64,000 nt of DNA from NCBI RefSeq assembly GCF_000003815.2, contig NC_049988.1:18264920-18328919 (forward strand), in the 5' to 3' direction. A model generated the notes under the pieces. It was not told where the DNA came from and searched no databases. It saw only the letters and a list, made by a program, of their open reading frames with translations. Numbering within the stretch: position 1 is the first letter of the stretch; every line of letters starts with the position of its first letter. The stretch comes from Branchiostoma floridae. Taxonomy: Eukaryota; Chordata; Leptocardii; Amphioxiformes; Branchiostomatidae. Positions 6,874-49,557 of the stretch are shown here, one piece after another. Position numbers and translations under genes: made by a program.

Positions 6874-9800
6874 TCATTGTAAAACCAGTCCAACCTGAAA
6901 TGGAAAAAGTACAAATCATGAATATTAAAAACAAGTCAAGAGTTAAAACATTGAAGAGTAAAACAACAAAGCTTATGTCTATTTCTACCTGCTTGGAAGT
7001 TACACTTGACACCTTTATCATAATCATGATGTGATACTGCTGGGTAGCTACATATTATAGCTAACAGTTAGCAATTTCTTTAGTTTCACCAGGTGCTATT
7101 CCAGTACACATGTAGCTATACAGGTAATAGGTAAATGAGTACTTTGCTAGCTAGTTGATAAGTCAGCAATGTACTTAAGCAGTTAGCCAAGCTATTTGAT
7201 TGCCAATGGTTAGATAACTAAATACTATTACTGAGCTACTTGATTAGTTAGCTAGGTACTTACATCATTGGGTGACATCTCCGGACACCTGTAGTTGTAC
7301 AGGTAATATTGCAGGTTGCCATCACCTGATTAGTTAACTAGTTACTTGATTGTTTAATTAGTTAGCTGATTACTACGTTAGCTGGTTATTTGATATGTTA
7401 GCTAAGTACTTACATCATTGGGTGACATCTCCGGACACCTGTAGTTGTACAGGTAATACTGCAGGTTGCCATCACCTGATTAGTTAATTAGTTACTTACT
7501 AAGTTATCTAAGTACTTACATCATTGGGTGACATCTCCGGACACCTGTAGTTATACAGGTAATACTGCAGGTTGCCATCACCTGATTAGTTAACTAGTTA
7601 GTTACTTGATTGGTTAGTTAGTTACTAAGTTATCTAAGTACTTACATCATTGGGTGACATCTCCGGACACCTGTAGTTGTACAGGTAATACTGCAGGTTG
7701 CCATCACCTATGCCGAACTTCAGCTGTTCCAAGAACTCCTTGTTCTGCATCAGGTCCAGTGCATTGAATACATCAAAATCTCTCTGAAATAGGCAAACAA
7801 TCATTTAAGTAAAGGAAGACTTTTTTCAAGTTTACATAGAATGAAATGCATGGTGACAACACCATATACTAGTGTCTGCCCTACGTGAAGCTACATGTAG
7901 CTACAAGGGTACAACAGTAGGACACTATACAGAACAGTAGGACAATAAAGGCTTTGTGTTTTCTTTCTCTTTCTAAAATGAAAATACAGGCTCCTTTGAG
8001 CTGAAAATTGCAGGGTATTTGGCAGTCAAGTGTCCATTCTAAGTACAGATTCCTTAACAAACAATTTCTGAATGTAGAAAACACTGCTATAGTAGAAATA
8101 AATTGTAGAAAGTCAATCAGGATATATACAATGTAACACTGTATTTACATTGTTTGCAAAGGATGATAGTTAGAACCAATGAAAAATTCTTCACAAAGAA
8201 AGGATGCACAAAGTAATTGATTTTTGTTCAGGTCCTCAAGTAATGGAAAAGATGGCATGAGCCTGTAATGTCTATAACTTAGCAAAGGACAGAGGGTCAC
8301 CCTTAATCTCCTTAAAGATGTAATGACTAGTGTGTCTCACCTGTTTAGCGAGGATGAGTGCATCGTTCATGATGTCCAGTAGACTGTGCTTGTTGTTGAC
8401 GTTATAGAAGGAGTAGGCAGCCTTCAGCTGAGTGTACTGGGGGTGGTGCATTATGGTGGAGGGGAGGGTGTAGAAACTGATGAAGTCTGTGATGGTCTTC
8501 TCTCCGCCTGCCTCCTCCTGTGGGGATGATTAGTGCACAGTCCGTTAATAGTTTGTCAGGTTTGTAAATTAATGGTTGACAACGTTCTTTACAAGACATC
8601 CTAAGACAGAAGAGACCAGTGTGTAAAAGGTTTTAAGATAATGGTCTTCTCTCCGCCTGCCTCCTCCTGTGGGGATGATTAGTGCACAATCCGTGAATAG
8701 TTTGTCAGGTTTGTAAATTAATGGTTGACAACGTTCTTTACAAGACATCCTAAGACAGAAGAGACCAGTGTGTAAAAGGTTTTAAGATAATGGTCTTCTC
8801 TCCGCCTGCCTCCTCCTGTGGGGGTGATTAGTGCACAGTCCGTTAATAGTTTGTCAGGTTTGTAAATTAATGGTTGACAACGTTCTTTACAAGACATCCT
8901 AAGACAGAAGAGACCAGTGTGTAAAAGGTTTTAAGATAATGGTCTTCTCTCCGCCTGCCTCCTCCTGTGGGGATGATTAGTGCACAGTCCGTTAATAGTT
9001 TGTCAGGTTTGTAAATTAATGGTTGACAACGTTCTTTACAAGACATCCTAAGACAGAAGAGACCAGTGTGTAAAAGGTTTTAAGATAATGGTCTTCTCTC
9101 CGCCTGCCTCCTCCTGTGGGGATGATTAGTGCACATACCTTGAATAGTTTGTCAAGTTTATAAATTGAAGGTTAACAAAGTTCTGCACAGAGTGTAAAAA
9201 GCCTCTCTTGGGCCATGCGGGCAGTGAGTAGTTATCCACTATGTCAAGGGCACTGTGTTGGGAGGCAGAGCACATTCCTATCCTCCCGCCACCTTTTACC
9301 AGTTTTACAACTGGGTAGAGTGGAGAATGGTGTGTCAAGATTCCCAGGACACAACATCTAGTCAGGAATACTGGGAATCAAACCTATGACCTCTTAATCT
9401 TACAGTGTTTCTGAGACACAAGTTTGTATGGACTCCAGGAAGAATAGATTTTACCTGCTATTTGTAAAGTCCAATGGAGATTAAAATAAACAAACAAACA
9501 CCCACCTCCACAACGAAGGAGTCAATGATGCCTTCTCTGGGCAGGAACCAGTGTTCAAACTCGTCCAGGGAGAAGACAGGAGACAAGTTGAACTTCTGCA
9601 GGTGTTGGTCCAGGAGGGCGTGGACCTGGGGGATGTCTGACTTCACCATGGGCCTCAGGCCGGCGGTCTTCGGTTCCTAGAACGCAAAATCCAAGTATCG
9701 TTGAGTATTGAAGCAATCTACTGCTTCCTTCGGTCAGTACTGATTATGATAAAATCCTATTATCATGGAAGCTCATCTGTGTTAATATCTTTGGTAATAA

Positions 9801-12800
9801 TCATAGTACAAAGCAAAATTTTCTTCCAACACAACAGTACAAATTTTCAATGACCACTGTCGACTTTCGGATCAGTACTGATGACCACAATCACTTCAAA
9901 ACGTAAAATCCTATTGATATCAGCCCTACAGCTTTGGCTATAAACAGTCCTATATGAGAATGATAGTCTCCGTTACATAGGGCACATCTGTAGGCTGACT
10001 CAGGTCAATTCCCACATACAGAAATATACTGTAATCCAACCATAGCATTTTAAGTCATGCAGTTCACACACCACTATTACAAACAATAACAGTAACTAAC
10101 AACATAATTAAACCTTACATCTGGCAGCTTATACAGGTTGATGGTTCTCTGCATGGTCCTGTCCCCGCCCCCAGAGGGAGACTTTCACCTCAATCAGCTT
10201 CTTGGGGTTCAAGGACCTGTGCCAATATCTGGGGAAACAAAGTAACATATTCACTATAAACAGGGCTCAAAATACCACCTGCATATGCAGGTTAGTGCAG
10301 GTAAAATTGGAGCTGTGTACTAGGTATTTGTATATGTCTACCTGCACCTGACCTGCACTGGTCTGTGAACTGAGTTTTATATATAAATGTCCTATAATGT
10401 AGGTGTATGGATTGTTCTTAGCTGCATTGACTGTTACCACCTATAAAGTATAAAAGAAAAAAATAGCAATGGTTCCTGAACAATTTTAGTGTGATCAGAT
10501 TGGTGCAGGTAAAACTGGTCCATGTACAGGGTTTAAACATAAATGTCCTATGATGTATGATGTAGGTGTACCAGTATCTGGATAGTGATTAGCTGCATTT
10601 ACTGTTAACACCTATTAAGCACTAAAGAAAAAATAGCCTTGGTTCTTCAACAACTTTAGTATGATCCATACCTCCTAAATTCAGAGTGGTACAGGTAAAA
10701 TTTGTCTGGTGCAGGTAATTTTCAGTGTCACCAAGTGCAGGTATGCAGAAAAAAGTACTGTATTTGGAGCCCTGCTATTAAGTACATATCCAGCTTCAAT
10801 GTAGGTGGGTAGGTATCAAATATTTGTGAACACAAAGATATGCAAGTGGGTGAAGCAGAAAAATCAGGAACCAAATGCAGTTAACCCCAGTGGGTGTTGC
10901 AGGAAAATCAGGAACCACTGGCATTTTTACCCGATGGGCGTAACAGTAAAATTGCGGACCACTTGCATTTTGTCCCAGTGGGGTGTAATACAAAAATCAG
11001 TACCCACTTGCTTTTTCACCAGCAGGTGTAACTGAGAAATCAGGACCCACCTGCATTTTGCCCCAGTGGGGTGTAGCACAAAAATCAGGACCCACCTACA
11101 TTTAGACCCAGTGGGTGTCACAGTAAAATCAGGACCCACCTGCATTTTGCCACCGGCCTGGGCAGCACCACCCCCGCCGTGTACACAGCTTGGAACAGTC
11201 CCTGCTGGTGCACCCGTCTCGTGATCTCTCGGATCAGGACCGGCGCCACGCGCTTCGACCGTAACTTCTTGTGGACACAAAGGAAGTTGATCTCGACCAT
11301 CTTCTGCAGACTGGTGGGAAGTACGACATATTAAGGGCTTCAGTCTCAGATGAAAAACACAGATAAATACAGCAGCCTATGTACACATTTACAAAGTATT
11401 TAATTTTATCATTTCATACAGTGAGCAAAAGTGACAGACTGTAAGTTATACGATAGAAAGATTCATTGAATTTGGGGTGGGGTTGATGTACAAAAAGTAG
11501 AAATGTTGAACATTGAATTTTGTATGTTCAATACCTTCACCATTTGTGAGCTAACAGGAGCTACATAGTAGGAATAGCATTTAAGAGTGCTAAGACTTGA
11601 GTTTGAATTAAGGTATAACAGCCTGTGATATCAACAACAACTTTCAGATCAATTCCGCGAGTTTCAACAAGACTACCACCTTACTGAAACAGCAAATCTA
11701 CAGAGATCTACTAGAACAACATCACTAATCTCAAGGCAGGCACAGGTAAGATATCCAGATGTGACAGTCTGACGTTGCATCCAAGAGTAAATACTTACTG
11801 GTCCTTTATTCTGATGGCAGCAGGCACTGCACTGATGAACCCCACTAGTTTCTTATTGGAGACCACACGGACGCCGCAGTGCCACTGGAGTAGCCAACCT
11901 GGCGGCTTTAACGCCCTGCAAAGAACAGACAAGCAAACAAACAAAATCGATTAGTAAACATACACGGCCTCCGCAGTGCCACTGGAGCAACCAACCTGGC
12001 GGCTTTAACGCCCTGCATAGAACAAACAAACAAACAAATAGTAAACATACACTAACTACTGCAGTGGCCTGCTAGGTGGCTTCAATACCCTTAAAAAAAC
12101 AGGTCAGTATACAATACACAGACACAGGCTAAGCAGTTTTGGGCCACTATACTGTCTATACGTGACTGGGTTTATCATTGGATGCTGCAGGTTAGGTACA
12201 GCCAGGTACACATCAGAAATACCTGTACAGGTCCAATAACCAGCCCTTGTTTGTATCTTTGTGTCTTTACGAAGGTTGAAAGAAAAAATTGGCAAACATT
12301 TACTTTAATTGAGAAAAAAAGGTCACAACTTACCACAGCAGGAAATCTTTGGAGTAGTCGAACCTGAACATGTTGTCATCATCCTCCACATAGTTCTCAT
12401 TCAGTAGAACGTACAGCTCACTTAACTGGAGAAAAAAATGTCTGTTTACTGAGAGGGGTATAACACATAAATCTACATAAAATGTTGTAACCTTAACTAA
12501 GATATTTCCATGAGTGAGATTTGATATACTTGTTATCTTTCATCAAGCATTGGCTACACAGAAAAATCGAGCCAGTAATAAAAGACTTGCATTGTTGGAA
12601 ATGAAAATACGCAGAAGAAAGTGTCATTCAAATTTCAGGCAAGTGATAAGTTGGTTTGGGCAAGCAAATTTTTATGTACTTGCCTGATAGGAAAAGTGAA
12701 TTTTAGAAAACTTGGTATCACATTTATGTCTTTGAAATGTGCTCATGTTACGGTATAGACTGTATTCGGTTGCTTTATATCTTTATTTTCATTATGGTGG

Positions 12801-15800
12801 TTGTGTCATCATGTGTGTCTGTAGGTTTCTCTAGAAAAAATGATCAAAAAAGAATAAAGGGGAAAGACATACATTACATGAGCTTCTGGAACCTTAAGGT
12901 TTTCAAGGCTACAAATCAATTAACAACCATTTATAATCATACACATTGCAAAGATCATTTTCAATATCACCCATAGATCTCTAACCAGCTTGTGCAGGTG
13001 GTCAGTACAACACAAATCTGGTTGATAAGACAATCCTCAGCACTTTAAAAAGCTAAAAGTTTAAGTACTAGCTGCATACCACATCAGGCTTGCTGATGTC
13101 CAGTGTGTCCCACTCGAACCCCTGGGGAAGACTGTACGGCTCCTGTCGCACTTCAGACTGAGGTTTGTCAGCTTCAATGGGCCCGTAGCCTTTCACGTCC
13201 TCTCCTGGTAGAGTCACATACAATATCACTAGTTAACTACAGAGTAATCTGCAAACTCTATACAGTGCAACAACCTCCTTTTGCCTTCTACCACGAAATT
13301 ATTGAATCTATAGCATAATTTATAGAACGGTAATGGTAGTTCCATAGCCTTTTACCTCCTCTCCTGATAGAGTGACATACAAAAGTACTGGTTAACTACA
13401 GGGTAATTGTTTCAACTGCAAACTTCAAAACACTACAAAAACCTCCTTTTGCCTCTTACCCTGAAATTAATGAAATTATAGTATACATGTGTGTTATAGA
13501 AAGGCAATGCTAGTCCCATAGCCTTTAACCTCCTCTCCTGGTAGAGTGATATACAACATCACTGGTTAACTACAGGATAAAAGTTTCAACTGCAAACTTT
13601 AAACAGTCCAACAGCCTCCTTTTAGTGCTGAATGGCAACCGATTCAGAGCCTTGCGACATTTGTATTGAGGTCACCTGAGATAATGCCGAATGGCAGCCG
13701 CTCCAGACCTTTGCAACTTACCTCCACCTATTGTAAGCTCCTCACAATTATTCAGTCCCTGTCTGTGAAAACAGAGTGGTCAGCCCATCTAATAACAACA
13801 ACATGACCCACCTATCTTGGGTACAGGTTGAGTATCCCAGAACTCGTACTTCTTGTCCCGAGCCTCGTCCACACTCTTGGGCTGCTGATGGACGGACAAC
13901 TGCTGCAGGGCCCGCTGCACTTCCTGTAGCTTCTGCAAGGGGAAGCCGTCCTGGGAAAATACATGAAAAGAAACTTAACACACAACCAAGGGATAATCAC
14001 CTTCCAATTGTTAACAGTTTGGTTAAATCAAAATCAAATACAACCGACAAATCTACCCACGCAACCACCTACCGGATTCTTCTGGCATTTCACATTCAAG
14101 TATCTAACAATAACAGTAATTATCTAAGAAGGTTAGGAAGTTTTTTTACATGTTTGAAAATGCTGGAGCTATGAATGGTTCATTCAAAGACAAAGTCATT
14201 TATAGGGACACATATAGTTTACATACCCAACCAGGGGATAGTCACCTTCCAATGTGCAACTCCCATCCAACCACCCATTACAAAGACACACCCATCCATT
14301 CATACATCCACCCACCCACACATAAACCTACCACCCACCCATACACTTCTCTCTCTCAAAACCAGATTTTCCCCTGGAATGTCTATACAAGCTGTTAGTA
14401 GTAGTACTGTACAAAATGCATGTCAAGTCTCTATGATTCACTGAAATGCAAATAAGGACACCAACATTCTGGTGGACACAGCAATGATGTCATTTAAAAA
14501 GGCTTTACAGTATTAGCTTATAAAAACAATTATTAATGTACAACAAATCTGCTGATCCTCACATCTTTCTCTTTAGTTGGCACACATACATACTACTACC
14601 TCTGTCCCAACCATCCCAACCAATGTTAAAATGTCTGTTATTACTGTGTGTACATGTTAAGCCTCACATCTGTTTTTTCTGCATCCCCAGCTGCTGCCGC
14701 CTCTCCTCCCTTCTTCTTCTTCCTCTTCTTACTCTTCTTCTTTGTCACCATGTTGTCCTGACTGTTGAAACAATAACAAAAATGTAGAGTTAAGGTTAAG
14801 AGGGACAATTAGTGGTATTTCATGGGATCTGGATAATTCTACACCAAAAAGCAGTTACCCAAGCAACTGGATATGATTTTGGAAACGGTCAGACGTTTCA
14901 GACAGCCATCTGGTGTCTTTTATCAGTCAGTGACCAACTGCTTTTTGGTGTATCTTAAATTCTTATTACCTGGATCTCTAACCTTCATTCTCTAACATTT
15001 GGGGGCTCACCTATGTAGATGTAGATAGATGTCATGTACTAAAACCACTGTAAAGCATTCATCACTGATGGGAATAGGAAACCTGATCGCATCACAACAA
15101 GCCATGACAAAATAAACATTTCTGGGAACGAGTTAAAACCTCCAAAACCACGAGGCAAATCATTTTGTGATCGTTTATCATTTTTGAACGATTCTATTAA
15201 GGGACCGTACGGCATTTAGCGAGGGGGTAGGGCCGGTCGCCAGGGGGGGGAGGGCCAAGCAAAAAAATATTTTGCCAGGGGGAGGGCCTAGCAATTTTTT
15301 TTTTACTTGGGGGGAGGGCCAAGCAAAAAAAAAATAGCTTGGTCTGCCAGCAAAATATGTCCCTTAAAATTCAAGAAACGGCGTTTCAGAGGATCAAGAT
15401 TTCAAAATTTTTCTGGACCTCTGCAAGGGATTGCCCGAGGTTGGCGCTCGGGATACAGTGAAAATGCGACAGGGAGGGGGCGGGGCTTATGCATGACGCC
15501 CTCGAAAACCTTCTTCACGCACAGAAATGTTATTAAACTCTAGATTAGTCTGGCAGCAAAATTTACCCCTGTCTTATTGCCCTCAAAATGTAAGAAATGG
15601 CGTTTAAGAGCTCGAGGGTAAATATTTGCAAATTCCCCTGGATCCCTTTTGACGTGACCGGCCTCGCGCCTTTGATGACCGACATCGTGATGATGTGTTT
15701 GGGGGGGATTTGATTTTGTATTTCTAAATTGAAATGCTATTAAAGTTAGCTTTGTTTGTCAGCAAAATATCTCCTCAAACTGAAGGAAATAGCTTTTAAG

Positions 15801-17119
15801 AGGGTCAAGATTTCAAAATTCTCCCGGACCTACCTTGCGATTCTTCGTGCCTTGGGCGCCGAACATGGTGTTCGGAACGTCGTTCTCAAAAACTTGAAAC
15901 CCTCATATTTTTTCTTTTCCATAGAAATGTCATCTAACCAGCAAATTTTCCCATAAAAAAGCAATGCAGGAAATCGTGGCAAAAAAAGCGTGGCATTTCT
16001 AAAAGATCTCCTGCAAATCTGCGGTCTCACGCCCGCCGGCGGCTAGAGAGAGGCGACCGGTCTTACCCCGCCGTGGGAAAATCAGCGTCACGCGTCGGCG
16101 CCCCCCTCCCCACTACAGTTTTGGAAGTCGAATCGTGCTGTCGTTTTGGTTTTCATTTTCCCCTCCGATTTACCGTAAGTTATTACCACCACAGAACCAA
16201 GAAAAAGTCCAAAATATATGTAAATTGAAAATAGTTTCCGTCAAGCCGCTCAGGCCCGCGCCCGCGAGCTTGCAATACGTAAATTTAGGGAGCGGGGCGC
16301 GCGCCGCTTCGTGGCGCAAATCTACTAGAAATCCAGGTACAAATGCTTTTTAGGTGTTGTTTTAATATCAAAACAATGAAATAGCTTCTATAAAGCAAAT
16401 ATTTATGCCTCTATGAAGCAGATATTTATCCCTCTATTTAGCAGATATTTTGAGCCATTCTGTTTTCCTTTTTTTACTAGGGGTGAGAGATCTGCTTCTC
16501 GATGAAAATCATGAAAAAGTATGACGCAAAGCACATTTCCAAATGCGGGAGCGCAGTGTTTTATTGGCGTCTTGAATATTTTTTTCAAAGTTGATAGGAG
16601 GGGGGAGGGCCAAGCAAAAATATTTTGTCTTGGGGGGAGGGCCTAGCAAAAAAAAATTTACCTGGGGGGAGGGCCATACCAAATTTTTTTTACCCGACCC
16701 TCTGGCGACCGGCCCTCCCCCCTCACTAAACGCCGTATGGTCCCTAATCAATCATGTCAGCCTTGCAAAATTTTGACAGGGTCTTCGAAGTGAAACAAAG
16801 GCGCAACTTCGCTTTGTGCCGCTTACAAATAAAATACAGATGCTACTTTTTGGGACACCGACATAAATCGAAACTGCAGAGATCCCTTTTCTGGTCCTCT
16901 GAGGATAGAAGGAACATGCATGTCATGTGGGGTGTCAACCAACCAAACCGGCTTGTCAGCCACTTCTCAAAGAAGCAACGCGACAAAAATAAAACGCAAC
17001 GCTTCTTTGGGATCATACCTTGTCCCCGGCTGCGGTTCGTCATCATGTTGTCCATCTAAGACGACCGAATCCTCCGTTTTGTCTTCTTCCTTCATCGCGG
17101 TAGCACGATCTTCCGCCAT
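6874..17119 (-). CDS. NMT1: Glycylpeptide N-tetradecanoyltransferase (N-myristoyltransferase)
   Basis: NMT transfers myristate from myristoyl-CoA to N-terminal glycines of cytosolic proteins. Twelve coding exons on the minus strand: 17019-17119, 14668-14761, 13812-13950, 13080-13204, 12334-12425, 11799-11915, 11140-11310, 10119-10228, 9506-9676, 8341-8517, 7646-7783, 6874-6894. The start [13 protein letters not shown] precedes a lysine-rich ribosome-targeting stretch ([11 protein letters not shown]) in exon 2. Family blocks follow in order: [47 protein letters not shown] and [17 protein letters not shown]. The final 21-nt exon encodes VGLVLQ-stop, identical to human NMT; the C-terminal carboxylate is the catalytic base in this family. 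Corrected length is about 484 residues (human NMT1 496). Exon 10119-10228 contains an apparent +1 insertion that breaks the frame. Vertebrate NMT1/NMT2 cannot be told apart here; the symbol denotes the family. Introns are rich in duplicated exon edges. Confidence 0.93.
7245..7645 (-). repeat. Three decoy copies of the NMT penultimate-exon 3' end with donor sites
   Basis: Segments 7264-7325, 7414-7475 and 7520-7581 are near-identical copies of the last 62 nt of exon 7646-7783 ([21 protein letters not shown]). Each is followed, like the real exon, by a GTAAGT donor. On the upstream side each copy begins after a CAG that could act as an acceptor. They sit between the true penultimate exon and the last exon. 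The separating sequence is rich in TTAGTTA/AACTAG motifs. Confidence 0.88.
8518..9125 (-). repeat. 149-bp tandem repeat carrying an NMT splice acceptor
   Basis: Four further copies of a unit of about 149 bp follow the 5' end of NMT exon 8341-8517, with the shared block recurring near 8642, 8791, 8940 and 9088. Each copy carries the first ~35 nt of the exon with its CCCCACAG acceptor plus upstream intron. Copies are almost identical, so the expansion is recent or is kept homogeneous. Confidence 0.92.
9185..9410 (-). repeat. SINE-like dispersed repeat, copy A
   Basis: Read on the minus strand this begins with a pol III B-box-like GGTTTGATTCC and continues with CTGGGAATCTTGAC and ACATAGTGGATAACTACTCA. 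It aligns along its length with 47745-47995, including ACAGTGGATAAAAACCCACT there. It lies in an NMT intron. Confidence 0.6.
9720..10020. repeat. Dispersed repeat shared with 18180-18290
   Basis: The block with ATTGATATCAGCCCTACAGC, ACATAGGGCACATCTGTA and CTGACTCAGGTC is repeated at 18180-18290 in CLXN intron 1. It is probably a transposable-element fragment. No ends could be defined. Confidence 0.6.
10261..10774. mobile_element. hAT-like MITE with CAGGGCTC ends
   Basis: This 514-bp element starts CAGGGCTCAAAATA and ends TATTTGGAGCCCTG, imperfect terminal inverted repeats. The interior repeats GTGCAGGTAAAATT-type motifs. The flanks CTATAAA and CTATTAAG resemble a decayed target duplication. 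A related element with CAGGGCTCGAAAT ends is at 52802-53150. Confidence 0.6.
10845..11139 (-). repeat. Roughly 48-bp minisatellite built from an NMT splice donor
   Basis: About six diverged units adjoin NMT exon 11140-11310. Each contains, on the minus strand, a variant of GGCAAAATGCAGGTGGGTCC, which is the exon's last bases plus its GTGGGT donor. Divergence rises with distance from the exon, as expected for stepwise tandem duplication. Confidence 0.85.
11947..12092 (-). repeat. Duplicated 5' edge of NMT exon 11799-11915
   Basis: One clear copy at about 11965-12018 repeats the exon start ([14 protein letters not shown], with an intact GCAG acceptor). A degenerate second copy lies at about 12058-12092. 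Both are in the intron upstream of the true exon in transcript sense. Confidence 0.8.
12588..12715. repeat. Dispersed 'ACTTGCC' repeat
   Basis: This contains TTTGGGCAAGCAAATTTTTA and ACTTGCCTGATAGG, and is related in inverse orientation to 18795-19115 and 21043-21250. These look like copies of one small element family. Confidence 0.55.
13205..13640 (-). repeat. Three-fold tandem repeat of the NMT exon 4 acceptor region
   Basis: Units of about 165 bp recur near 13183, 13349 and 13517. Each contains a variant of the exon 13080-13204 start (reading GAGAGGAGGTAAAAGGC-like in the copies) plus its CCAG acceptor and upstream intron text with GTTAACTACAG. The first is the functional exon edge. Confidence 0.8.
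14830..14985. repeat. Foldback MITE family F, copy 1
   Basis: Starts ACACCAAAAAGCAGTTACCC and ends with the inverse AACTGCTTTTTGGTGTAT. The interior has AAGCAACTGGATATGATTTT and GGTCAGACGTTTCAGA. The same family is at 36181-36385, 38400-38580, 48655-48790 and 60665-60930. Confidence 0.65.
15201..16744. mobile_element. Harbinger-like non-autonomous DNA transposon, copy 2 (inverted)
   Basis: This 1544-bp element is the reverse complement of the copy at 549-2100 along most of its length. It starts GGGACCGTACGG, ends CCGTATGGTCCC and is flanked by TAA at 15198-15200 and 16745-16747. It sits in NMT intron 1. Short open frames inside it are not conserved between the copies. Confidence 0.85.
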
Positions 17120-17535: not shown

Positions 17536-20500
17536 ATGGCGCACATCGTCGCCAAGAAGGCGCTGGCAAAGCTGGCTGAGACCTGCTACCGATCAACACA
17601 CTGTGAGTCCAGTTATTCCTCGTTGTTTACGTTGACAACCGAACATTGCCTTGAACGTTTCAGTCATGTTGCACTAGTCATATAATGTCATGAAGGATGT
17701 AGCACTTTGCAAAAGCTATAAACTTGAGTTTAGATACTATCAAAGTCCAGGAGAATCATTATGAAAGATTTTCCATCTCAACATCTGCTTGGATTATATT
17801 CTTTGTACTTGCAAGTACGGTGTCTTGTAGATTGTCTTTGACTTGTCTATTAAGTACATAATTTTGAGCTGTTGGTCCCAATTAGTTGGTAGCTTGGAGA
17901 CCCCAGTCTTGGGTAAGGCATCTCGTTTGGGGCTGCATTGTGTTTCGGAATCATGAATTGGGTGTCCCATGTTTGAGCCTTTTGAGAATCAAGTACTAAA
18001 GTACATGAAAGGGGGAAGGACTACCAACCCCTCCCTCAGTCCCTGTATAGATACAATGATAGTTCACCTTTATCCCTCGGGTAATGAAAATACATGATTT
18101 GTATACCACCATCTATCGACTTGATATCCCTAAATACCCAGTTTATAAATAAAACAGATTTCTCGTATTAATGATTGTTTGGCCTCCTTCAGTCAATATT
18201 GACCATAGTAAAATCCTAATTGATATCAGCCCTACAGCGTCAACAGTCTCTGCCACATAGGGCACATCTGTAACCTGACTCAGGTCTGTTCTTTTCGCAG
18301 GATCTGCTTGTCTTCTGCCATGCGCATCAGTCTGGTTTCTCCTGATTTTAGCTGCCTGGAGCTTAATGATTATAATAATATAATTCCTCTGTTTGTGTGG
18401 TTCCAGTTACAAAGCAGGAGGTAGAAGGTCTCCTACATGTGTTCCGGGACCTGCAGACGAGTAAGAAGGGGAAAGATGAGATGAAGATGGACCGCGCCAC
18501 TTTCCGGGAGGTGCTGCACTACACCTTCGCTATGACAGACGACATCCTCATGGACAGAGGTCAGTTTTTTAAATCATTCATAAATTTTCTTCATAAATGA
18601 GTCAAAATAGCAGACACTGACACTGACCATCCATTGGTCTACAACTCATATAAGGAAATATGAAAGGTGATGCTTCAAATAGTTAATAGAAAATAATACT
18701 AATACAGTCAAGAACATAATGTACCTCATTTGCCCCATTAATGGCTTCTTCTGTAGAATTCCCCTTCTTATGGCAATAGAATTATACTCCACAGGGTTGA
18801 ACAAGTTTTCTAAAATCCACTTGTCCTATCAGGCAAGCACATAAAAAATGTACTTGCCCGAACCAATTTTTCACTTGCCCAAAATTCAAATGTCACTGTT
18901 ACTAGTATATGCATTTTCACTTCCAGCAATGGAATTCCCTGTAGACAATTGCTTGATGTCATGACTGTAAAAAGTAAGAAGTATATCAAAATTGCACTAA
19001 AATCAATGGAAAAATCTTACTTGCCCGATCGGACAAGTGGGGTAGGACATGCACTTGCCCGAACAGCACTTTCACTTGCCCTGGACAATAGGGCTAGTGG
19101 ACTTGTTTATCCCTGCTCCACTTTCAAGAAATGATGGAAAACTAACTTGGTTGGCTTTTCTACTTTTTTTTATATATGCATACAGATTTTGTATTCCAGA
19201 ATACGGATTTTAGCTAGCAAGCAATATTACAAGATCACCTATTGATTTAAATTCAAAGTATGTGTAAGCTAAGGGGGAGAAGTCTGCTATGTCTGATTTC
19301 TGTGTTGTTATTCCTGCAGTATTCCGTGGCTTTGACCAGGACAACGACAGCTATGTCAGCGCTCAGGAGTGGGTCCAGGGCCTGTCTGTCTTCTTACGGG
19401 GAACCATGGAGGAGAAAATGAAATGTAAGGAAAATTTTTGACTAAAACTATAGACAGTTCTTTTATTTCCATGAATAATTTCAACAGGTTGGTAAATACT
19501 CATAGTAAAGTTCTTCCAACACAACACACCTAAAAGAGTACTCACCTCCAACGTTTCAATGTGTCAGACACCATCATCAGGGTTAGAATGGCTGAATATG
19601 CTTCTCACTGCTACTTATAGCCGATGTAGGTGGCGCTGCAGCAGTGAGAATGCTATCGGCTGTAAGTTTAGTTGTTCAACTGTGACCAGTACTTATTTCT
19701 TTCACAGATTGTTCTAAGGTGTACAATCTAAATTCAGATGGCTACATCTTAAGGGAAACATGTTTTGCATGTTCAATAACTGTTACCGGTACTTCTCTTT
19801 TTTACAGATTGCTTTGAAGTGTACGATCTAAACTCAGACGGCTACATCTCCAGAGAGGAGATGTTCTCCATGCTGAAGAACACACTCGCCAAACAGCCTA
19901 CAGAGGAGGATCCTGATGAGGGCATCAAGGATCTGGTGGAGATCACCCTCAAGAAAATGGTACGGCCCAACTGTAGTTTATTGGTGTTAGTTGGAGATGA
20001 GTAGGGCTAGTCCATTGAAGATTTAGGGGAAACGGTCATTTACTAAATAGTGAATTCAGCTTAATTCAAATAGGATTTTCAACCCAACTGTAGCTTATTG
20101 ATCATACTTATAGTACCTCAACCTGAAGAAAATGGTATGGCCTAACTGTAGCTTATTGATGTTAGTGTTGGAGATGAGTAGGGGTATTCCATTGAAGATT
20201 TAGGGGGCAAGATAATTTTTTTTGGTGATGACAAATTCAGCATAGTTTGCATAGAGTTTTCAATCAAAATCTTGCCAGTGACTATGACCACCGCGACAGT
20301 AGACTGTGTTTGCAGTGGTCTTTAGTTTGCGGTGAAGACAAAACCCACAAAACCTGTGAACATCATACCACTGTAAACATTTATGGTAGCGTGCGTAGCC
20401 TCTGGAACTAGAAGCCATGAGTTTTATTCCAGCTGTGTCGCTCGCCGGACATGCAAGATACCAGAAAGGAATGCAGTCCTTAGGATGGGACGTTTAGCCG

Positions 20501-21496
20501 TTGTCCACTGTACATTGTGCTTGTAAAAAAGAAGAGCTTGGAAATTTCCGCGGTACAACGAACATGTAAATACTGTACATAGCGTCTGTTCTCTCTGTCA
20601 CGACCAATGGAACATTAGCTCTACAGTGAGCTAAAACTGGGTGGAGATCACTTTCCTTTTATAACATTTCCACTGAATGAACTTACAGTACCTACATTGT
20701 TATCCCCCCCCCCCAGGACCATGACCATGACAGCAGACTGTCCTACTCAGACTACAAGACGTCTGTGGAGACAGAACCGCTTCTCCTGGAGGTGTTCGGG
20801 CCCTGCCTCCCAGCTGCTAAGGTGAGACTGAAGTCTGTTCAAACTAAACTCTGCACAGCTTAGACATAGAACTGGTAAAAAGCCTGATAGCAAGGATTGC
20901 AGAGCTTTTTTTTCAGATAATGGTGGTGCTATGGGTCTTGGGAGACTGACATTATTCCCAAAATAAGAAAATTTAAATGAATTTAAGCAAAATTACCAAA
21001 ACCCGCAGCTAAGGCGGGACTACAATTGGCTCAAACCAAACGAGGGTTGGACAAGTTTTCTAAAATCCACTTGTTCTATCAGGCAAGTACAGTCCGAACC
21101 AACTGTTCACTTGCCCAAAATTCAAACACATTTTTCCAATGTATATTACCTTGCTTCAAGCAATAAAATTCCTCTACCATAATGGCTATTGTTTTCTGTG
21201 TTGACCAATGCTTGATGTCATGACTGTGAAAAGTTACAAGTGTATAAATTAGTTTCACTTAATTTTTTCCTTCATGATTTCTACTTTAAAACAGACCTAA
21301 CAGCTAGAAATAGAGGAGGGACAGGATTGAAACAGAATTTGTTTGAGTTTAGGTTGTGGATACCGGTACTTGGATAAGTCTTAGTTTTTGTGGTTCTCAT
21401 TTGTCCTCATCCTGTTAACTAATATTTATTTTCTATTTTCAGCAAGTCCACGCCTTCACAGCGACATTTTCTGACACTTGTACAGACTATTACTGA
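17536..21496 (+). CDS. CLXN: Calaxin (EF-hand protein of outer dynein arms)
   Basis: Calaxin (EFCAB1) is a neuronal-calcium-sensor-like protein that binds axonemal outer-arm dynein and controls ciliary and sperm flagellar waveform in a calcium-dependent way. Six coding exons: 17536-17602, 18407-18559, 19320-19424, 19808-19959, 20717-20821, 21443-21496. They join in frame to 211 residues, the usual family length. Three EF-hand loops are visible: residues 79-90 ([12 protein letters not shown]), 115-126 ([12 protein letters not shown]) and 160-171 ([12 protein letters not shown], with Asp instead of Glu at position 12). Diagnostic blocks [15 protein letters not shown] and [19 protein letters not shown] are nearly identical to vertebrate calaxin. 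The C-terminus (SDTCTDYY) differs from vertebrates. AATAAA lies at 22001-22006. Exon 19808-19959 has partial copies of both its edges in the adjoining introns. Confidence 0.94.
18795..19115. repeat. Dispersed 'ACTTGCC' repeat, copy in CLXN intron 2
   Basis: Several ACTTGCCCGAAC and ATCAGGCAAGCAC motifs with ACAAGTTTTCTAAAATCCAC recur here and at 21043-21250. Their ends are unclear. Confidence 0.55.
19688..19760 (+). repeat. Partial copy of the CLXN exon 4 5' edge
   Basis: The stretch from 19700 to about 19753 repeats the acceptor and first ~45 nt of exon 19808-19959 ([14 protein letters not shown]) with about 80-85% identity, directly upstream of the true exon. In the copy TTTGAAG has become TCTAAGG and the frame is damaged. 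Confidence 0.8.
20085..20215 (+). repeat. Partial copy of the CLXN exon 4 3' edge and donor
   Basis: The stretch CTGAAGAAAATGGTATGGCC and the following ~80 bp repeat 19948-20035, including the exon's last bases, the GTACGG-type donor (here GTATGG) and the downstream intron with GTTGGAGATGAGTAGGG. Confidence 0.82.
21043..21250. repeat. Dispersed 'ACTTGCC' repeat, copy in CLXN intron 5
   Basis: GGACAAGTTTTCTAAAATCC, ATCAGGCAAGTACAG and TTGATGTCATGACTGTGAAA match the element at 18795-19115. Confidence 0.55.
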
Positions 21497-26109: not shown

Positions 26110-41095
<14,986 letters not shown>

Positions 41096-41129
41096 ACTGT
41101 TTCAATTATCGGTATCACTTTTACAGTAA

Positions 41130-41245
41130 GTGTAACTTTATGTTATGCCAACTTCTCTGACTCAACCAAACTCAGCTAGCAGAAGAAGTCTGGAGCTTTT
41201 CTACAACAAGAACAAATCCGGGGTCTTCTGTAGGAGATAGACTGT
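41130..41245 (+). pseudogene. Decayed copy of the DHX8 last-exon 3' end inside its 3' region
   Basis: Sequence resembling [26 protein letters not shown]...FRRR-stop of exon 40876-41095 recurs here as CTCTGACTCAACCAAACTCA through CTGTAGGAGATAGACTGT. Several internal deletions shorten it. It follows the true stop by about 50 bp. Confidence 0.8.
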
Positions 41246-41975
41246 CTGACTTCTTACAACAATGCTTGTAATTTTCTGCTACAGATACCCATAGGCTTAC
41301 TGAATTATCACTTTTTACAGAAATGATTGTTAAACACAGGCATATTGAACTGTTACTTTTTGAAGAGTGTTTGGGCAATACTGTGGATGTTTTTTACTGA
41401 AAAATCAACTTTTTGCAAAGTGTTTGTTTTTCTGTAGAAAATAGGCTTGCTGTCATGTCTAACTATTACTTTTTTGCCAAATGTGCTTTTAACTTTGTTT
41501 CTATGTGGAAAAAAGCCCTGAAAGTCAAGACTCCAAGAAACCATACATTTATTTAAAAGTTGGTTGTATTGTCAATCACATCCATAGTTACTGGTAATGT
41601 AAGTAGTCTGACAGCTTCTATAATGATACCATCTTGCATACAAAAAAAAAAAAAACATTAGATACTATATGTACATTTGTGTTTCAATGACCAAACAGAA
41701 AGTGGGCAAATTTACTTACAAGTAAAGAAACATTTTAAAGAAGTTCCTTGATAGTAAAAGACTAACATTATAATCATTGAACAGGTTTGTGTAAAATGGT
41801 GTAAGCGTTGCATTCTGTTGTCATTTTGCAATTTCTTTGGGTTGTATTGGGTGACTGTTTCGCAACATCAACTGTGACCTTCTTCTGAAGCCCTTAGTTA
41901 AATGCTAAGTTTCATTCCATTTGGTAAACCTTGAATAGTACAATGTGTTGTGTACCATGCATGTACATGTATGTA

Positions 41976-41981
41976 AATAAA
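41976..41981 (+). terminator. Candidate DHX8 polyadenylation signal
   Basis: AATAAA in GTAAATAAAGTATG lies about 880 bp after the stop. A second AATAAA in the same GTAAATAAAGT context lies at 42234-42239. Confidence 0.4.
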
Positions 41982-42411
41982 GTATGTGAAATTAGACTTG
42001 TCCATGACTTTATACTTTAGTTGAATTACACTGGCTGGCTTCCTTGTCATTGCTTGCTTTTTCTTCACTCTTATTGATAGAAAACATTAGAAAATATTCC
42101 CTGATTCAGTGAAATAAATGTTGGGGCATGCCTATATAAGGCCAATTGCTTTGGGCTAGCTGTATTGCTTACAATCTATAGTTGTATTTACAAACCACGC
42201 AACTTTAGAACAAAGCAAATAGAGACCCTTGTAAATAAAGTCTTGTTATCACAAAATTGAACATTTTGTGTTGCTGCATTATTTTTAAGGAATGTGTGTG
42301 TTTGTATTGTGTATGACTGAACAATGAAAGCCTGCTTGAATAAATTTTAACTTGTACTTATCACGGTCATACCCTAGCATTCTTTGAATAAAAAAAAAAA
42401 ACGATGAGCGT

Positions 42412-42477
42412 TACTTTGTTCTGACTTACTACATTGGATATCATAAGTTATGATGATATCTAAGTCAGAACAAAGTA
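42412..42477. repeat. Perfect inverted repeat with palindromic centre
   Basis: The 17-bp arms TACTTTGTTCTGACTTA and TAAGTCAGAACAAAGTA (42412-42428, 42461-42477) are exact inverses. The 32-bp centre itself contains GATATCATAA and its near-inverse, so the whole 66 bp folds into one hairpin. Confidence 0.8.
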
Positions 42478-44932
42478 CAATCACCCAGCCAACCTCTGCT
42501 TTGAGAGCGCTGAACAAAGGCTTAACAATGCCGAGTATGAAAGAATGTTGCCACTACAGAACTTACATGTACATACCTAGGAGTGAGACCTACCAGAATT
42601 GATTCAACATCATGCATTTACTAAGTATTTATTTCTTCATCACCAGAATTTGTTTAGTAGCATGTCTTTTTGGTATTGTGCCTTCAATTTCTTAATTTCT
42701 TCTCCTACCGTAAGATGGAAAGAGCAAGAAACGTGGACCAGGAAGCAAAGTATGAAAAGCGTAAAGAAATTCCTTACATCTGCTTGGAGGCTAGACAATG
42801 CCCATCATGTTGCGTCATTGTTACATTTGGGAGATTCCATTCTCCCTATAGGTAGGTAATAAAAAGTTCACGGTGCTATATGTCAATATTTTAGATGTTG
42901 AAACAATTGAAATAGTGCTTACGGAGGTTCAATGATTAATTCATGCATTATAGTTTTTTTAATGGTTACATTGCTGTAATTCCTATTTTGTTATTTCCTA
43001 TAATCTAATAACACCACTCTTTTGCAAAGTGTATTCTTCCTAGTTTAAAACGCACATTCAGAACACGCACACTTTCCATTTTACCCCGTAGCGTTACACT
43101 CACTAACCAAAAAAGAGCGTTTTGAAATCGTTTGAAGTCCACAAGAAAAGGGGAACAAACAATTTTTGGAAACCAGGTCACTGTAGGTCAAAGGTGAACG
43201 ACCCCGATCAGCTGATTTGACGTCACGCCCATACTCAATGACTTTTGGCGTCTGCTAGCGATCGTCCCCATTTCCTCTGAGATACGGCGAAGGACGGACG
43301 TATACGCGTACACACCGGTACACATATTCACATCCTTACTACCATTTTACAGGTATGTGGTGAACGTATATTGGTAGGGTTATCGTAAATAAGACAACGT
43401 AGCGGTAAGGGTGAGAAAATAGCAAATTTAAAGGCCGTTTCTGATGCGATTGTCAGTTGTACTTTTCCGTTTCGGACCTGAAAGTGTGTTCGTAGCCGCA
43501 GGCAACGCCCATTCAAACCGGTTTAAATTACGTAGAAATTGTCTGTATGACGTAAATTTGCCTCATCACTAGATCTGCAAGGTCTGGCTATGAATACTCT
43601 TCTTGTTTTTCTTCAATATTTTATGCATATCGATCTAACAGGCCAGATATTAATTTGTGTTCTAATGCCCTAAACTGAATGAAAAAGAGGAACAAAACCG
43701 CCTGATTTGATATAACGTTATAAGGTAATCAAATGGCTTTGATTCACCCAAGGACGTTATATCAGATATAGACCTGATATAATGTCCTTGATTCACCAAG
43801 GTTTCCCACTCTCTTTGTTATGAAACAACACAGTCGTGTAGACAGATGTGTAAAATGACATGTAAATTGCTCAAATCTCCAGTGACGGTAAATATTCATG
43901 CCGGCCGGCGATCGGTCATGTTGATAAGCGATGAATATTTCAAATGTCGTCTCTTTGTCCTGGATTTGTCTTAAATTCGTTGCCGGCTAATCGTGCCGAT
44001 TAAATTTTGTTGCCACGTTTACTGTTAATGAATTACGTAGATCGTGACGTCAAATTAATTATTTCACAAGATTTGAATATGTTGGGCAGAGGGTGTATTA
44101 GTTTAATACGTTCTCACAGAATCATCTGAGCCACTGTATAAACAACAGTTTCATAGTCCACTGAATATGCAAATGCCATTTACTCGGGACCACAAAGCTG
44201 AAAATAAAACGAACGCAAATCGGTATCAGTTTACTTGACAATTTAACAAGAAAGTCCGGAAACTGGACCATTTTGCAAGTCACCATTTGTAACGTCATTG
44301 ACACGCCAGTCATTGACACGCCACCGCCCATATCACGCCCCCTACACACCTCCAGACTACAACCGTTACCTAGGTGACACCTTGACGTCATCACATTGTT
44401 GTCACTGACGTTTTAATGTTGCATCATGTAATAGTTAAGTTAGAAGATCAAAGTTTACCTGAGGTCATTGCCTCAGTATGCTTAATCGTACGGGCAAACT
44501 TGGTTGATTTATGTGGGGTTGTATTTCTTTTTTGGGCAAGATATTTTTATTTGGAACTTTTGTGAAAGGAAATATTTTATATCAATCCCTTTTATGTATA
44601 AAAATAACTACAATGAATTGATAAACGAAGACCTTTATTGTACCTTTATTACAAGCTAAGTACAGGTCAAGATTATAAAGTAGTTCTAACATTTAAGTGA
44701 TGTAAGAATCTATCTTACCACACATAGTTTGAAGTGCACTGGCACTGTACTGGGCAATTGTACTTGTAACTGTTGTGACTTCAATCAATGAATGAATGAA
44801 TGAACAAAGTTTTATTAACGTTACCTAGTATATTTCGTCTTGCAACATTATACAATTAATGTTGCCACCACTGAAAAGGAAACACTGACATTCCTTTTTT
44901 CTAGTTTCAGTTAATTTTTAAAACAAGCAACC

Positions 44933-47900
44933 ATGGGAAAGATCAAGGCCGGACCAGTCGTGGAGGTCAAAGGTGACGAGATGACCCGGGTCATCTGGGA
45001 GCTCATCAAGGACAAGCTGATTTTCCCGTTTCTGGACGTGGAGCTTCACACCTTCGACCTGTCCATTGAGGAACGGGATCGCACGGACGACCAGATCACG
45101 ATAGACTGCGCCAACGCCATCAAGCAGTACAGCGTGGGAGTCAAGTGTGCTACCATCACTCCAGATGAAAAAAGAGTGAGTAAGATTGGTCTGTGTTTTT
45201 ATGAGCTGCTTGAACAGATAGTGATTTTGAAGGAAAAAACATATTTGACTGAACATTCTTTAGCTATGCAGGCAAAAGAGTGACTGCCAAGTGGGCTTCT
45301 TGGCCGCTTTTTCTGTCCCTTGCAATGGTCCAAGAGACCAAGACACCTCTTCACTAACTTCTTCAGCTTTGAGGAGCACTTAATTCTTTTAAGTTACTTC
45401 AGAAGCTTTTTTTTCTAATGCTGTCGTACGTGCCAAGCGGAAAGAAAACTTTCCACATAAGGCCTCCAGAGCTTTGTGTCAAAGGCCCTTGAAATTTTTG
45501 TCGTCTCGTTGACTTTAAATGTGTTTACCTTTCAACATGGATCAGTAAGACTTGAAGTATTATTCAAACAGACTGTCAATGAAAACCAACAGTCTGGACA
45601 GTAGTTTTGCCTGCTTCAATAATGAACTAAAAATACAATTTGACAGAATTTCACATAAACATTTAGAAATCATATGTTGAGTCTTGTTTCATAATGTGAC
45701 TTTTATGAGCAATTTTCATGACTCATGAATTTTCAAACTATTATCATTGCAACAAAATCAGGCCTGACAAGACTTTACTCTCCTTCTTTCAGCCTTGAAC
45801 TCTTAATATTTCTATCTTCATCTAAGGGTACCAGACAACATGGCCCTAATAGCTCTTTACATTTCAGGATCTTAAAATAATATCAGTGACCAGTCTCTGT
45901 CATCTTTTATCTGATCTTTGACACATTTTGGTAACTTCCTTCTTCCAGGTAGAGGAGTTCAACTTGAAGAAGATGTGGAGATCGCCCAATGGCACGATCC
46001 GTAACATCCTGGGTGGAACAGTGTTCCGAGAGGCCATCATCTGTAAGAACATTCCCCGATTGGTCACCGGCTGGACGAAACCTATCGTGATTGGACGTCA
46101 CGCTTTTGGAGATCAGGTAAAACAAAATAACAACAAAAGTGGGGGAATGCAGCATCGTATAATGGGTGGTAGGTAAAGATCAAATGTATTAGCGCTATGC
46201 ATGTGATGACCTTACACATTGTACAAGTGTTGATTTGATGAAATATGATGTACATTAATGAAAAAAATTAACCTTAATTAAAAGTGTTGCACGACTAGCT
46301 AACGACAAAGCTTCGTGCTTCATCCTCAGTATGTGGTAAACCAGAAAGAAAGAGAGAAATTTAAGTACAGTATCGGCTCACATTTTTCGCTATTTGTGTC
46401 TGATTTTTCATTTTCTCTCAATTTTTTTTCAGTACAAGGCCACAGACTTTGTTGTACCAGGAGCAGGTAAACTGGAGATCACATTCACACCAGAGAATGG
46501 AGGAGAGGCGCAGAAGTACACAGTCTTCGACTTCAAAGGTGAACTAACGCAACTTCTCTTCAAATGCAATTCAATCTCTAAAACTGGATAAGAATTGAGT
46601 TTTTGTAACTTCTAGTCGTTTTGAGTGACATCCATCACTCTTCCTTAGATGACATGTATATCATTGTTTTATAAACAGAAAAACAGTGATGTCAAGCTGC
46701 AATATTTAGAAAATGTTGCACTTTGTAACCACTGTCAATTCTCTAAACACCGTTTATAAAACAACAGATATACAAGGTAGGTTACCCTGCAGATAAAGGT
46801 GAACTAACATTACAAACTCTGCTCTTCTGCCTTCAGTACAGAACTTCACTAATAAACTTTCTTGTTTCCCCAGATGGTGGCGGGGTTGCGCTGGGCATGT
46901 ACAACACGGACGCCTCCATCAGGGACTTCGCCCACAGCTGCATGACCTTTGCCCTCCAGAAGGCCTGGCCGCTCTACATGTCCACTAAGAACACCATCTT
47001 AAAGAAGTACGACGGAAGGTTCAAGGACATCTTCCAGGAGATCTATGACCAGGTCAGGGTCTTGAACTTGTACTTAAATGATTGGAACTGCAGCACTCTT
47101 GTTAGAGAAGTGTTTAAACTAAGTATCTTTAAAAGGCCACTGGTTTAGATCTGAAGTGAATTCTTCCTACAGCTTCCCATGTTTCCTACAGTTTAATAAT
47201 TACATGTATGTCTTGAATACCAAATCATGTTCACAAGCTATCCAGGCAAGCAATAAGTCAACAATCACGGCAAAGACATAACTTGCTTCCTTAGTTCCTA
47301 CAATTGATATCAACATACAGTAAAACCAATAGTTAGAAAGTCATGGACATTGCCGAGTCATTTTGAAAAATGCTGAAATCGTGCCTGGGTGCCATCCTCT
47401 GTAATATTACTGCTGGCTCAATCTTTTTGGTTAGCAAACGAAATTTTGCAATCATGAATGATCAACAACATTGCCCTTGCCTGTAGAATGTAAATCTGAA
47501 TTTGGACGTTTTTCATTCTGTTTCCAGAAATACAAGACAAAGTTCGAGGAAGCAGGGATCTGGTATGAGCACCGGCTCATCGATGACATGGTGGCGTACG
47601 CCATGAAGTCTGAGGGCGGGTTTGTCTGGGCCTGTAAGAACTACGATGGGGACGTGCAGTCAGACTCTGTAGCACAGGGTAAGATTTAACTTGGCTGTAG
47701 TGAGTGAATCTATTGTGGTACTGTCAATAGCCAACACAGATTCCTGTAATGCCTACCTCCCAGCGTGCGATTGAGAAGGCAGCAGATGTCCTGGGTTTGA
47801 ATCCCCTGACATGCCATCAATGTTTTGCCTTTCCAAGCTGGGTAGAAATGGGAACCTGACTTCAGTTGGGAAGGAAAAAGACTGTGGAAAGAGATCAGTC

Positions 47901-49557
47901 TAGTGGATTGGGATCTGCCTTAAAGTTTCAATACCGTGCCTAGACACAGTGGATAAAAACCCACTGCCCCAATGGCCTCAAAAAGGCTATTGGACTGCCT
48001 TTATAGTTTATAGTCTCTACCAGACTAACAACACTGGCTGTTATAGGGAGAATAATTTACCAGTTTTGCTACCAGAGGAGCTGGCGTGGACTGACTCCCC
48101 TGGAAAATTTCCAGATTTTTTGCTGAATTCTACTATCCTCATAACCCCATGTGATGGTCTGGTGGAGGCTTCTTACAAGATAAGTTACAATTTGTTAATG
48201 ATTGTGTGTTTATTCTGTCAGGCTATGGTTCCCTGGGAATGATGACCAGCGTACTGATCTGTCCGGACGGAAAGACTGTAGAGTCTGAGGCCGCCCATGG
48301 CACCGTAACACGACACTACCGGATGCACCAACAGGGCAAGGAGACGTCCACAAACCCCATAGGTAAATATGTCCATCATCTACTGGCACAAAAGTTCATC
48401 TGTGTATTCAATCTAACATCATTCATCTTTAGCCTGATTATAACAGAGATGTCTGGGACAGCATTATATTTCCCAGTCGTACATACAAGGATGAACTGAA
48501 CTGTACTGTGGAGCTTCCAAGTAAATCAAGAAATCAATCTATTTCATAATTAGTATTCCTAGCTAGGAATTTAGCCTGGCATTCTTGTGAGAGGGGAAGG
48601 TTCTTCAGGAAGATATTGCCATGTTTGCTATTATATGGCGTCTTGTCTTTGCTACAAAAGACAGTTACTCAAGCAACTAGATATGATTATGGAAATGGTC
48701 AGATGTTTCAGATAGCATCCTGATAGCATCTTTTGTCAGTGACACTGTTGCTTTCAATGAGTAGCTGCTGTAATCTTATTACCTTCAATGACGAACATTG
48801 TAATGACTTTTGATGTTGAAACAAATGTTATTGTAATTCAATACTGGTCTCTTTCCCCCCAGCCTCCATTTTTGCGTGGACCCGAGGCCTTCTCCACCGA
48901 GCCAAGCTGGACAAGAACAATGAGCTGAAAACCTTTGCCACCAGCCTGGAGGAGACGTGCATAGAGACCATCGAGGGGGGGAAGATGACTAAAGACCTGG
49001 CTATCTGCATCAAGGGTCTGGCTAAGTAAGTAACTAAGATCAGTAACAGTAACAGTATCAGTAGAACCAAAGACCTGGCCATCTGTATCAAGGGTCTGGC
49101 TAAGTAAGTAAAACTCCATCTAGACCACTGTGACTGTCTCTGTAGTACTATTTTTTGTGTGTGTTCTCAAGAACAAGAATTTTCAATAGATCCAGAGGGA
49201 ATTTCAAATTTGTAGCCCAAGGTTTGCAGCCCTTTGATAAGTTCTCTGAAGTTAAGATTATGGTTAATTTTGAACAATTACGAGCCCAGCCCCTTAAGAG
49301 ACCAGCTGAGGTTTGGTTCCATCTGTTTCTGATGTGCTGTTGGGTGTTTCTGTCAGGCCTTCTATTTTGTCCTGTTTTCTTCATGTCCACCACAGAGGTT
49401 TGGAAGCTGCTAGCAACAAAGCAAATGCAATGCAACAACATAACAAACTGCATTTTTGTTCCCCCTCCCCAGTGTGACACGCGCCGACTATCTCAACACC
49501 TTCGAATTCCTGGACGCTCTGGCTGAGAATCTACAGAAGAAGCTGTCTGCACAATGA
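44933..49557 (+). CDS. IDH1: NADP-dependent isocitrate dehydrogenase, cytosolic type
   Basis: Oxidatively decarboxylates isocitrate to 2-oxoglutarate, producing NADPH. Eight coding exons: 44933-45175, 45949-46116, 46433-46538, 46874-47052, 47528-47678, 48222-48362, 48863-49025, 49473-49557. They join in frame to 411 residues (human IDH1 414). Key blocks are [34 protein letters not shown], the substrate-binding arginine of [10 protein letters not shown] (residue 131, equal to human R132), [16 protein letters not shown] and [13 protein letters not shown]. The start [19 protein letters not shown] aligns with the short IDH1 N-terminus and there is no mitochondrial presequence, which argues against IDH2. 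The C-terminus ends KKLSAQ, without the SKL-like peroxisomal signal of human IDH1. The 3' edge of exon 7 is duplicated at 49064-49107. Confidence 0.95.
47745..47995 (+). repeat. SINE-like dispersed repeat, copy B
   Basis: A B-box-like GGTTTGAATCC (47797-47807) is followed by GGGTAGAAATGGGAACCTGA and ACAGTGGATAAAAACCCACT, matching 9185-9410 read on the minus strand. It lies in an IDH1 intron. The head is tRNA-like in part, but I could not fold a full cloverleaf. Confidence 0.6.
48655..48790. repeat. Foldback MITE family F, copy in IDH1 intron 6
   Basis: CAGTTACTCAAGCAACTAGA, GGAAATGGTCAGATGTTTCA and TTTTGTCAGTGACACTG match the left half of the other family F copies. The right half is decayed. 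Confidence 0.55.
49064..49107 (+). repeat. Copy of the IDH1 exon 7 3' edge and donor
   Basis: AAAGACCTGGCCATCTGTAT through CTGGCTAAGTAAGTAA repeats 48992-49034 ([12 protein letters not shown] plus the GTAAGT donor) 72 bp downstream, with two third-position differences in the coding part. Confidence 0.92.

Follow-up and report, generated by a model that had tools for sequence, protein, structure and literature searches.

The window analyzed in this study is a stretch of 64,000 nucleotides from the genome of the lancelet Branchiostoma floridae (C10:18264920-18328919; the assembly comprises 513,431,437 bases in 431 contigs). It contains the genes NMT, CLXN, DHX8 and IDH1, in which segments crossing a splice junction are repeatedly found copied in tandem. 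These arrays are new instances of the amphioxus 'mirages', and what our analysis adds to them is a count of their placement against a null.

Exon models were built by spliced alignment to human proteins. NMT lies on the minus strand with modelled exons spanning 6877-14739, while CLXN was modelled at 17554-20833, DHX8 at 26116-41092 (22 exons) and IDH1 at 44939-49548 (8 exons). The identity of DHX8 was confirmed over 1203 amino acids against PDB chains, and Pfam matches to NMT, EF-hand and Iso_dh confirm the identities of NMT, CLXN and IDH1. For the NMT model, two of the 13 aligned blocks (16680-16745 and 10020-10028) were dropped and exon 10119-10228 was set by hand. In this exon, which carries no array, the frame slips by one base relative to the protein guide, which may represent an assembly error, a polymorphism or a mis-set exon. 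Apart from this exon, the real exons at the array edges are intact and in frame, and the spliced models yield homologous proteins.

Tandem copies at splice junctions

Self-alignment with a score cut-off of 20 or more recovered 34 families in the window, where three dinucleotide shuffles peaked at 18. In a junction-centred scan, a tandem copy across the boundary was found at 16 of the 84 splice junctions of the four genes (NMT 5/20, CLXN 2/8, DHX8 8/42 and IDH1 1/14), which agrees with the at least 15 sites claimed in the preliminary description of this DNA. The arrays described in the following were found by both approaches.

All five NMT arrays lie on the minus strand. A donor mirage at 7092-7709 belongs to exon 7646-7783 (junction 7645/7646) and has downstream copies at 7227-7327, 7351-7477 and 7440-7583. 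The acceptor mirage at 8492-9189, beside exon 8341-8514, consists of 4.7 copies with a period of 149 base pairs (bp) and about 97% identity, and a decayed donor mirage with a period of 44/88 bp occupies 10845-11168 next to exon 11140-11310. Two further acceptor mirages are found at 11865-12038 (exon 11799-11915; a single copy 97 bp away) and at 13182-13623 (exon 13080-13204; two extra copies, period 159-174 bp).

The remaining arrays lie on the plus strand. In CLXN, both edges of exon 19808-19959 are affected, with an acceptor mirage at 19678-19881 (copy at 100 bp, 77% identity) and a donor mirage at 19943-20275 (copy at 175 bp). DHX8 carries five acceptor mirages, which are as follows: 29059-29571 at exon 7 (29507-29640), with four upstream copies of a period of about 100 bp and a TTTG microsatellite; 32601-32986 at exon 32906-33087, with two upstream copies, one of them short, and a period of about 152 bp; 34568-34893 at exon 34794-35004, with a decayed copy at 138 bp; 37367-37898 at exon 37794-38087, with three upstream copies; and 39215-39643 at exon 39543-39739, with 2.7 copies of a 168 bp period. 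Its three donor mirages are located at 31951-32599 (exon 11, 31879-32026; copies at 32355-32441 and 32531-32599 in TG-rich DNA), 34346-34476 (exon 14, 34190-34375; a short copy beyond a GTA microsatellite) and 35810-35989 (exon 35667-35848; copy at 120 bp). IDH1 has one donor mirage at 48988-49111 (exon 48863-49025; copy at 78 bp, 93% identity).

For the analysis of the copies themselves we used a stricter list of 56 copies at 22 junctions in seven genes, from which IDH1 and DHX8 exon 14 were dropped on margin. Relative to the real exon, every one of the 40 acceptor copies is found upstream and every one of the 16 donor copies downstream, the arrangement that had been expected of a duplicated unit spanning the junction; it follows from tandem copying together with the need for an intact protein and message. 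Across the 24 junction-spanning families of the eleven genes introduced below, identity ranges from 73 to 98%, in line with the earlier impression of copies of varied age, from near identity to decay. The exon share of the period runs from 0.10 to 1, so that the junction can fall at any place in the unit. A sharp breakpoint fixed at the splice site was considered and is not seen.

Most copies had been described as keeping usable splice sites, and 55 of the 56 contain the canonical dinucleotide. With the copies treated as independent, all 40 acceptor copies have AG where 32.9 would be expected (P = 2e-4), and 15 of the 16 donor copies have GT where 12.1 would be (P = 0.06). On a simple position weight matrix, for which 42 introns of the window served as the training set, 43 of the 56 decoys fall within 2 bits of the real site or above it, and 30 equal or exceed it. 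At the family level, retention is significant for acceptors (P = 2.5e-4, 14 families) and not for donors (P = 0.35, 8 families), and several other positions in the copies also reach a retention of 1.0. Because copies within an array share their history, we read the retention of the dinucleotides as suggestive. The arrays constitute a natural experiment in splice-site choice, in which an acceptor has to be recognized despite near-identical ones just upstream. Gene prediction in lancelets may be led astray by them as well.

Placement against null models

Because exons lie close together, many randomly placed units would cross a junction. The window was compared, together with a blind set of seven genes that had not been chosen for the feature (SDHA, ATP5F1B, MDH2, SCAP, CTNS, RBM48 and SH3BP5), with random placement, giving a total of eleven genes and 202 junctions (84 in the window genes, 118 in the blind set). 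Outside the four window genes, 12 of 16 ab initio chains were inspected and the recognized ones (SCAP, CTNS, RBM48 and SH3BP5) were used. For SCAP, 18 of 34 aligned exons were kept, and five boundaries (5936, 16393, 21700, 22689 and 23423 in region coordinates) came from an ab initio finder and were adopted after the arrays had been seen. Seven of nine aligned exons were kept for CTNS and all four for RBM48, of which the first and last are weak. VCP and ADH3 stand outside the blind tally because only their array-bearing parts were read, and EEF2, CCT2, GOT2, PGK1, ENO1, CS and a second ATP5F1B locus were located and left out of the count.

Tandem families with a unit of 50 bp or more numbered 79 in 304 kilobases, and 55 of these keep clear of all exons, whether modelled or predicted ab initio. 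In our main null model, each array was collapsed to one ancestral unit, which was placed randomly in the collapsed gene. Junction-spanning families were observed in 16 of 21 cases in the window against 5.4 expected (P = 5.9e-7) and in 8 of 15 cases in the blind genes against 2.3 expected (P = 4.1e-4), so that in both sets the arrays are denser at junctions than random placement predicts. Pooled over tolerated placements, from which one exon-only family was excluded, 24 of 35 families span a junction against 8.3 expected (odds 8.9, 95% interval 4.3-19.7), at 24 of the 202 junctions. When the junctions were shifted circularly 20,000 times, the number of junction families averaged 6.5 and never exceeded 16, against the 24 observed. 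The excess also appears with coding sequence masked, with 10/16 junction families in the window (3.9 expected, P = 7.6e-4), 7/16 in the blind set (1.9 expected, P = 7.1e-4) and 17/32 in the pool (5.8 expected, P = 1.6e-6). Among young families of 85% identity or more, 14 span a junction vs two that are confined to introns.

Copies beside a constrained exon should diverge and disappear more slowly, an effect that by our reasoning is at most about two-fold and was allowed for by doubling the odds of junction placement. With doubled odds the pooled excess remains significant unmasked (P = 5e-5; blind set alone, P = 0.02) and with coding sequence masked (P = 0.0014), and at four-fold odds the unmasked pool still gives P = 0.025. 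The preliminary description had staked its claim on junction-spanning duplications being more frequent than intron-only ones, and the comparison, made on the 202 junctions of eleven genes rather than genome-wide, left that claim standing.

Several points weigh against the explanation favoured below or limit the count. At four-fold odds the blind set is unsurprising (P = 0.22). The least favourable result comes from an earlier null in which arrays were moved as a whole, which for the window gave P values of 0.070, 0.036 and 0.022 at score cut-offs of 20, 25 and 30, and of 0.009, 0.005 and 0.002 at the same cut-offs when restricted to tolerated placements. It was replaced because an array is the outcome of copying, and random placement has to be applied to the one ancestral unit; we think that this null is wrong, yet its result stands as the one that speaks least for the excess. 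The partial models of SCAP, CTNS and RBM48 lower the expected number, the genes are few (eleven), and eight of the 24 junctions lie in DHX8 alone. No junction-spanning copy was found at the junctions of SDHA (0/24), ATP5F1B (0/18) and SH3BP5 (0/10), so that density varies greatly from gene to gene; copies could be hidden by the 1330 N of the SDHA stretch and the 2035 N of the SH3BP5 stretch. The counts also refer to standing arrays and not to observed births. GC-rich sequence is not supported as a driver, as the non-exonic families have a guanine-cytosine (GC) content of 0.406 vs a background of 0.402. The window is denser than the blind genes (16/84 vs 8/118 junctions, Fisher P = 0.014), and its density is biased upward because it was picked for the feature. 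On balance, the junction excess is likely real and its size uncertain.

Explanations for the junction excess

According to our analysis, the arrays are probably the product of a genome-wide, minisatellite-like duplication that is filtered by purifying selection and shows an excess at junctions. Mirages would be tandem duplications with a unit that happens to cross an exon-intron boundary and a period of about 60-175 bp. The general process would act throughout the genome and still continue, with arrays expanding and contracting after their birth. Purifying selection would purge units that lie wholly in coding sequence or copy whole exons, and would tolerate intron-only units and units over one junction, the latter because they leave the real exon undamaged and confine the partial copy to the intron. 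Such a filter fixes the geometry and leaves the number of junction families unaccounted for. We lean slightly towards the simplest addition, namely that exons and their surroundings are more frequent starting points of duplication. A more far-reaching reading, which we hold to be less likely than not, is a mutational process in lancelet genomes that favours exon edges as sites of short tandem duplication, several-fold over introns and intergenic DNA. If true, it would steadily seed introns with partial exons and with full-strength decoys that splicing must ignore.

The excess might also arise without any bias in birth, if duplications were uniform and junction copies, one of which is always a constrained exon, simply outlasted the others. 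Together with geometry and purifying selection this accounts for the one-sided arrangement and, with 8.3 of 35 expected at equal odds, for some of the junction families; in the blind set taken by itself, the excess weakens at two-fold odds and is unsurprising at four-fold odds, as given above. We nevertheless consider it somewhat unlikely as a full explanation, because the pooled excess persists at doubled odds, masked and unmasked, and is strongest in the young families of 85% identity or more. These same observations speak for a mechanism targeted to junctions, a special case of more frequent starts in or near exons. Here splicing or transcription (R-loops, pausing or nicks near splice sites) would break the DNA at exon edges, and 60-175 bp around the break would be copied by fill-in or template switching. 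The free position of the junction within the unit, with no breakpoint at the splice site, and the lack of copies in SDHA and ATP5F1B, both presumably highly transcribed, make such targeting doubtful in our view.

The other candidates named in the preliminary description fare less well. Selection might retain copies, perhaps in the role of spare or regulatory splice sites, and the complete retention of AG in acceptor copies, significant also at the family level, lends this suggestive support; for donors, the high count of GT does not reach significance by family. The copies within an array are non-independent, several other positions are also fully retained, and an upstream decoy acceptor, if used, would put intron into the message, which renders such selection very unlikely. 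Slippage in flanking microsatellites would fit at most three of the 16 arrays, those at DHX8 exons 7, 11 and 14 with TTTG, TG and GTA runs in or beside them, while for 13 of the 16 the Tandem Repeats Finder table lists no unit as short as one to four bases, and periods of 59-175 bp are not of the size of slippage; we regard it as very improbable for the arrays at large. Least probable of all is an assembly artefact, in which wrongly joined haplotypes or reads create false copies. The published B. floridae assembly was merged from two divergent haplotypes with HaploMerger2, and the copy numbers of known mirages vary among haplotypes and assemblies (PMC3087553, PMC3902484), so that individual copy numbers are unsure. 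As a general cause it would have to explain why mis-joins seek out splice junctions and yield a graded divergence, neither of which is expected, and for PGBD5 an independent check of the repeats with new reads has been published (PMC3902484). The preliminary interpretation as a whole is partly supported.

Other features of the window and known systems

A related exon-internal tandem duplication is found at 54426-54723 on the minus strand, where two in-frame copies with an offset of 159 bp (53 codons) lie inside an open reading frame of 608 codons (53794-55620), whose frame is kept. The C-terminus of this frame matches Shugoshin_C below threshold, which was the one match of a Pfam search of six open reading frames outside the four genes; Rfam gave no match at the gathering threshold. 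A dispersed repeat of about 240 bp at about 10261-10497 has 40 other copies on many contigs (82-90% identity among the candidates scored) and looks like a short transposable element. A 32 bp GC-rich/A-rich repeat occurs in two orientations at 610-693, 1970-2056, 15246-15331 and 16600-16694, possibly marking the ends of paired elements, and an assembly gap of 100 N lies at 59237-59336.

The preliminary description knew of no named mechanism; the phenomenon itself has a name, and amphioxus mirages are in print for Adh3, globins and PGBD5. PMC3087553 describes two globin genes with mirages, whose units measure 150-160 bp and 157 bp, reports that their copy number differs between haplotypes, cites the Adh paper by Canestro and colleagues, and suggests that the phenomenon may be more general in cephalochordates, its mechanism being called unclear. 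PMC3902484 adds PGBD5 as a further lancelet gene whose repeats were confirmed by new sequencing data. As a positive control, the 5' part of Adh3 in the present genome carries arrays at exon 2, with 6.9 units of 59 bp on the acceptor side and 9.8 units of 33 bp on the donor side. Two more short-period arrays flank the first modelled Adh3 exon (L038, 18-162 and 271-359). VCP, queried blind, gave a table of matches in which one full exon is accompanied by 13 partial copies of itself; in the DNA they correspond to a donor-side array with about 14.6 units, each of 178 bp (L033, C15:18637500-18641000, 375-2975). In EEF2, the last two exons are seemingly present twice in tandem at the protein level (C2:28080000-28083450).

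Among the papers listed in our literature searches, in which subscription papers were largely outside coverage, we recognized no genome-wide count of mirages against a null by title or the beginning of the abstract. The origin of mirages, left open in the published accounts consulted (PMC3087553, PMC3902484), would become a testable claim about mutation if the junction bias holds up against simple null models.

The window arrays share with the mirages of Adh3, TnC, the globins BflGb6 and BflGb9, and PGBD5 the short tandem units across one boundary, the acceptor and donor types, the frequently retained decoy AG or GT and the varied divergence. They differ in that 16 occur in four neighbouring genes and their placement was counted against a null, whereas the published accounts consulted proceed gene by gene. 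With ordinary minisatellites, or variable-number tandem repeats (VNTRs), they have in common the tandem arrangement, repeated units and partial end units, while their placement favours splice junctions. The gain of introns when proto-splice sites are duplicated in tandem (Rogers; Gao and Lynch; cited in PMC3087553) likewise creates extra splice sites within genes through internal tandem duplication. The duplicated segments of the window do not form new introns in our models; the copies remain within existing introns, and no new intron or exon is modelled.

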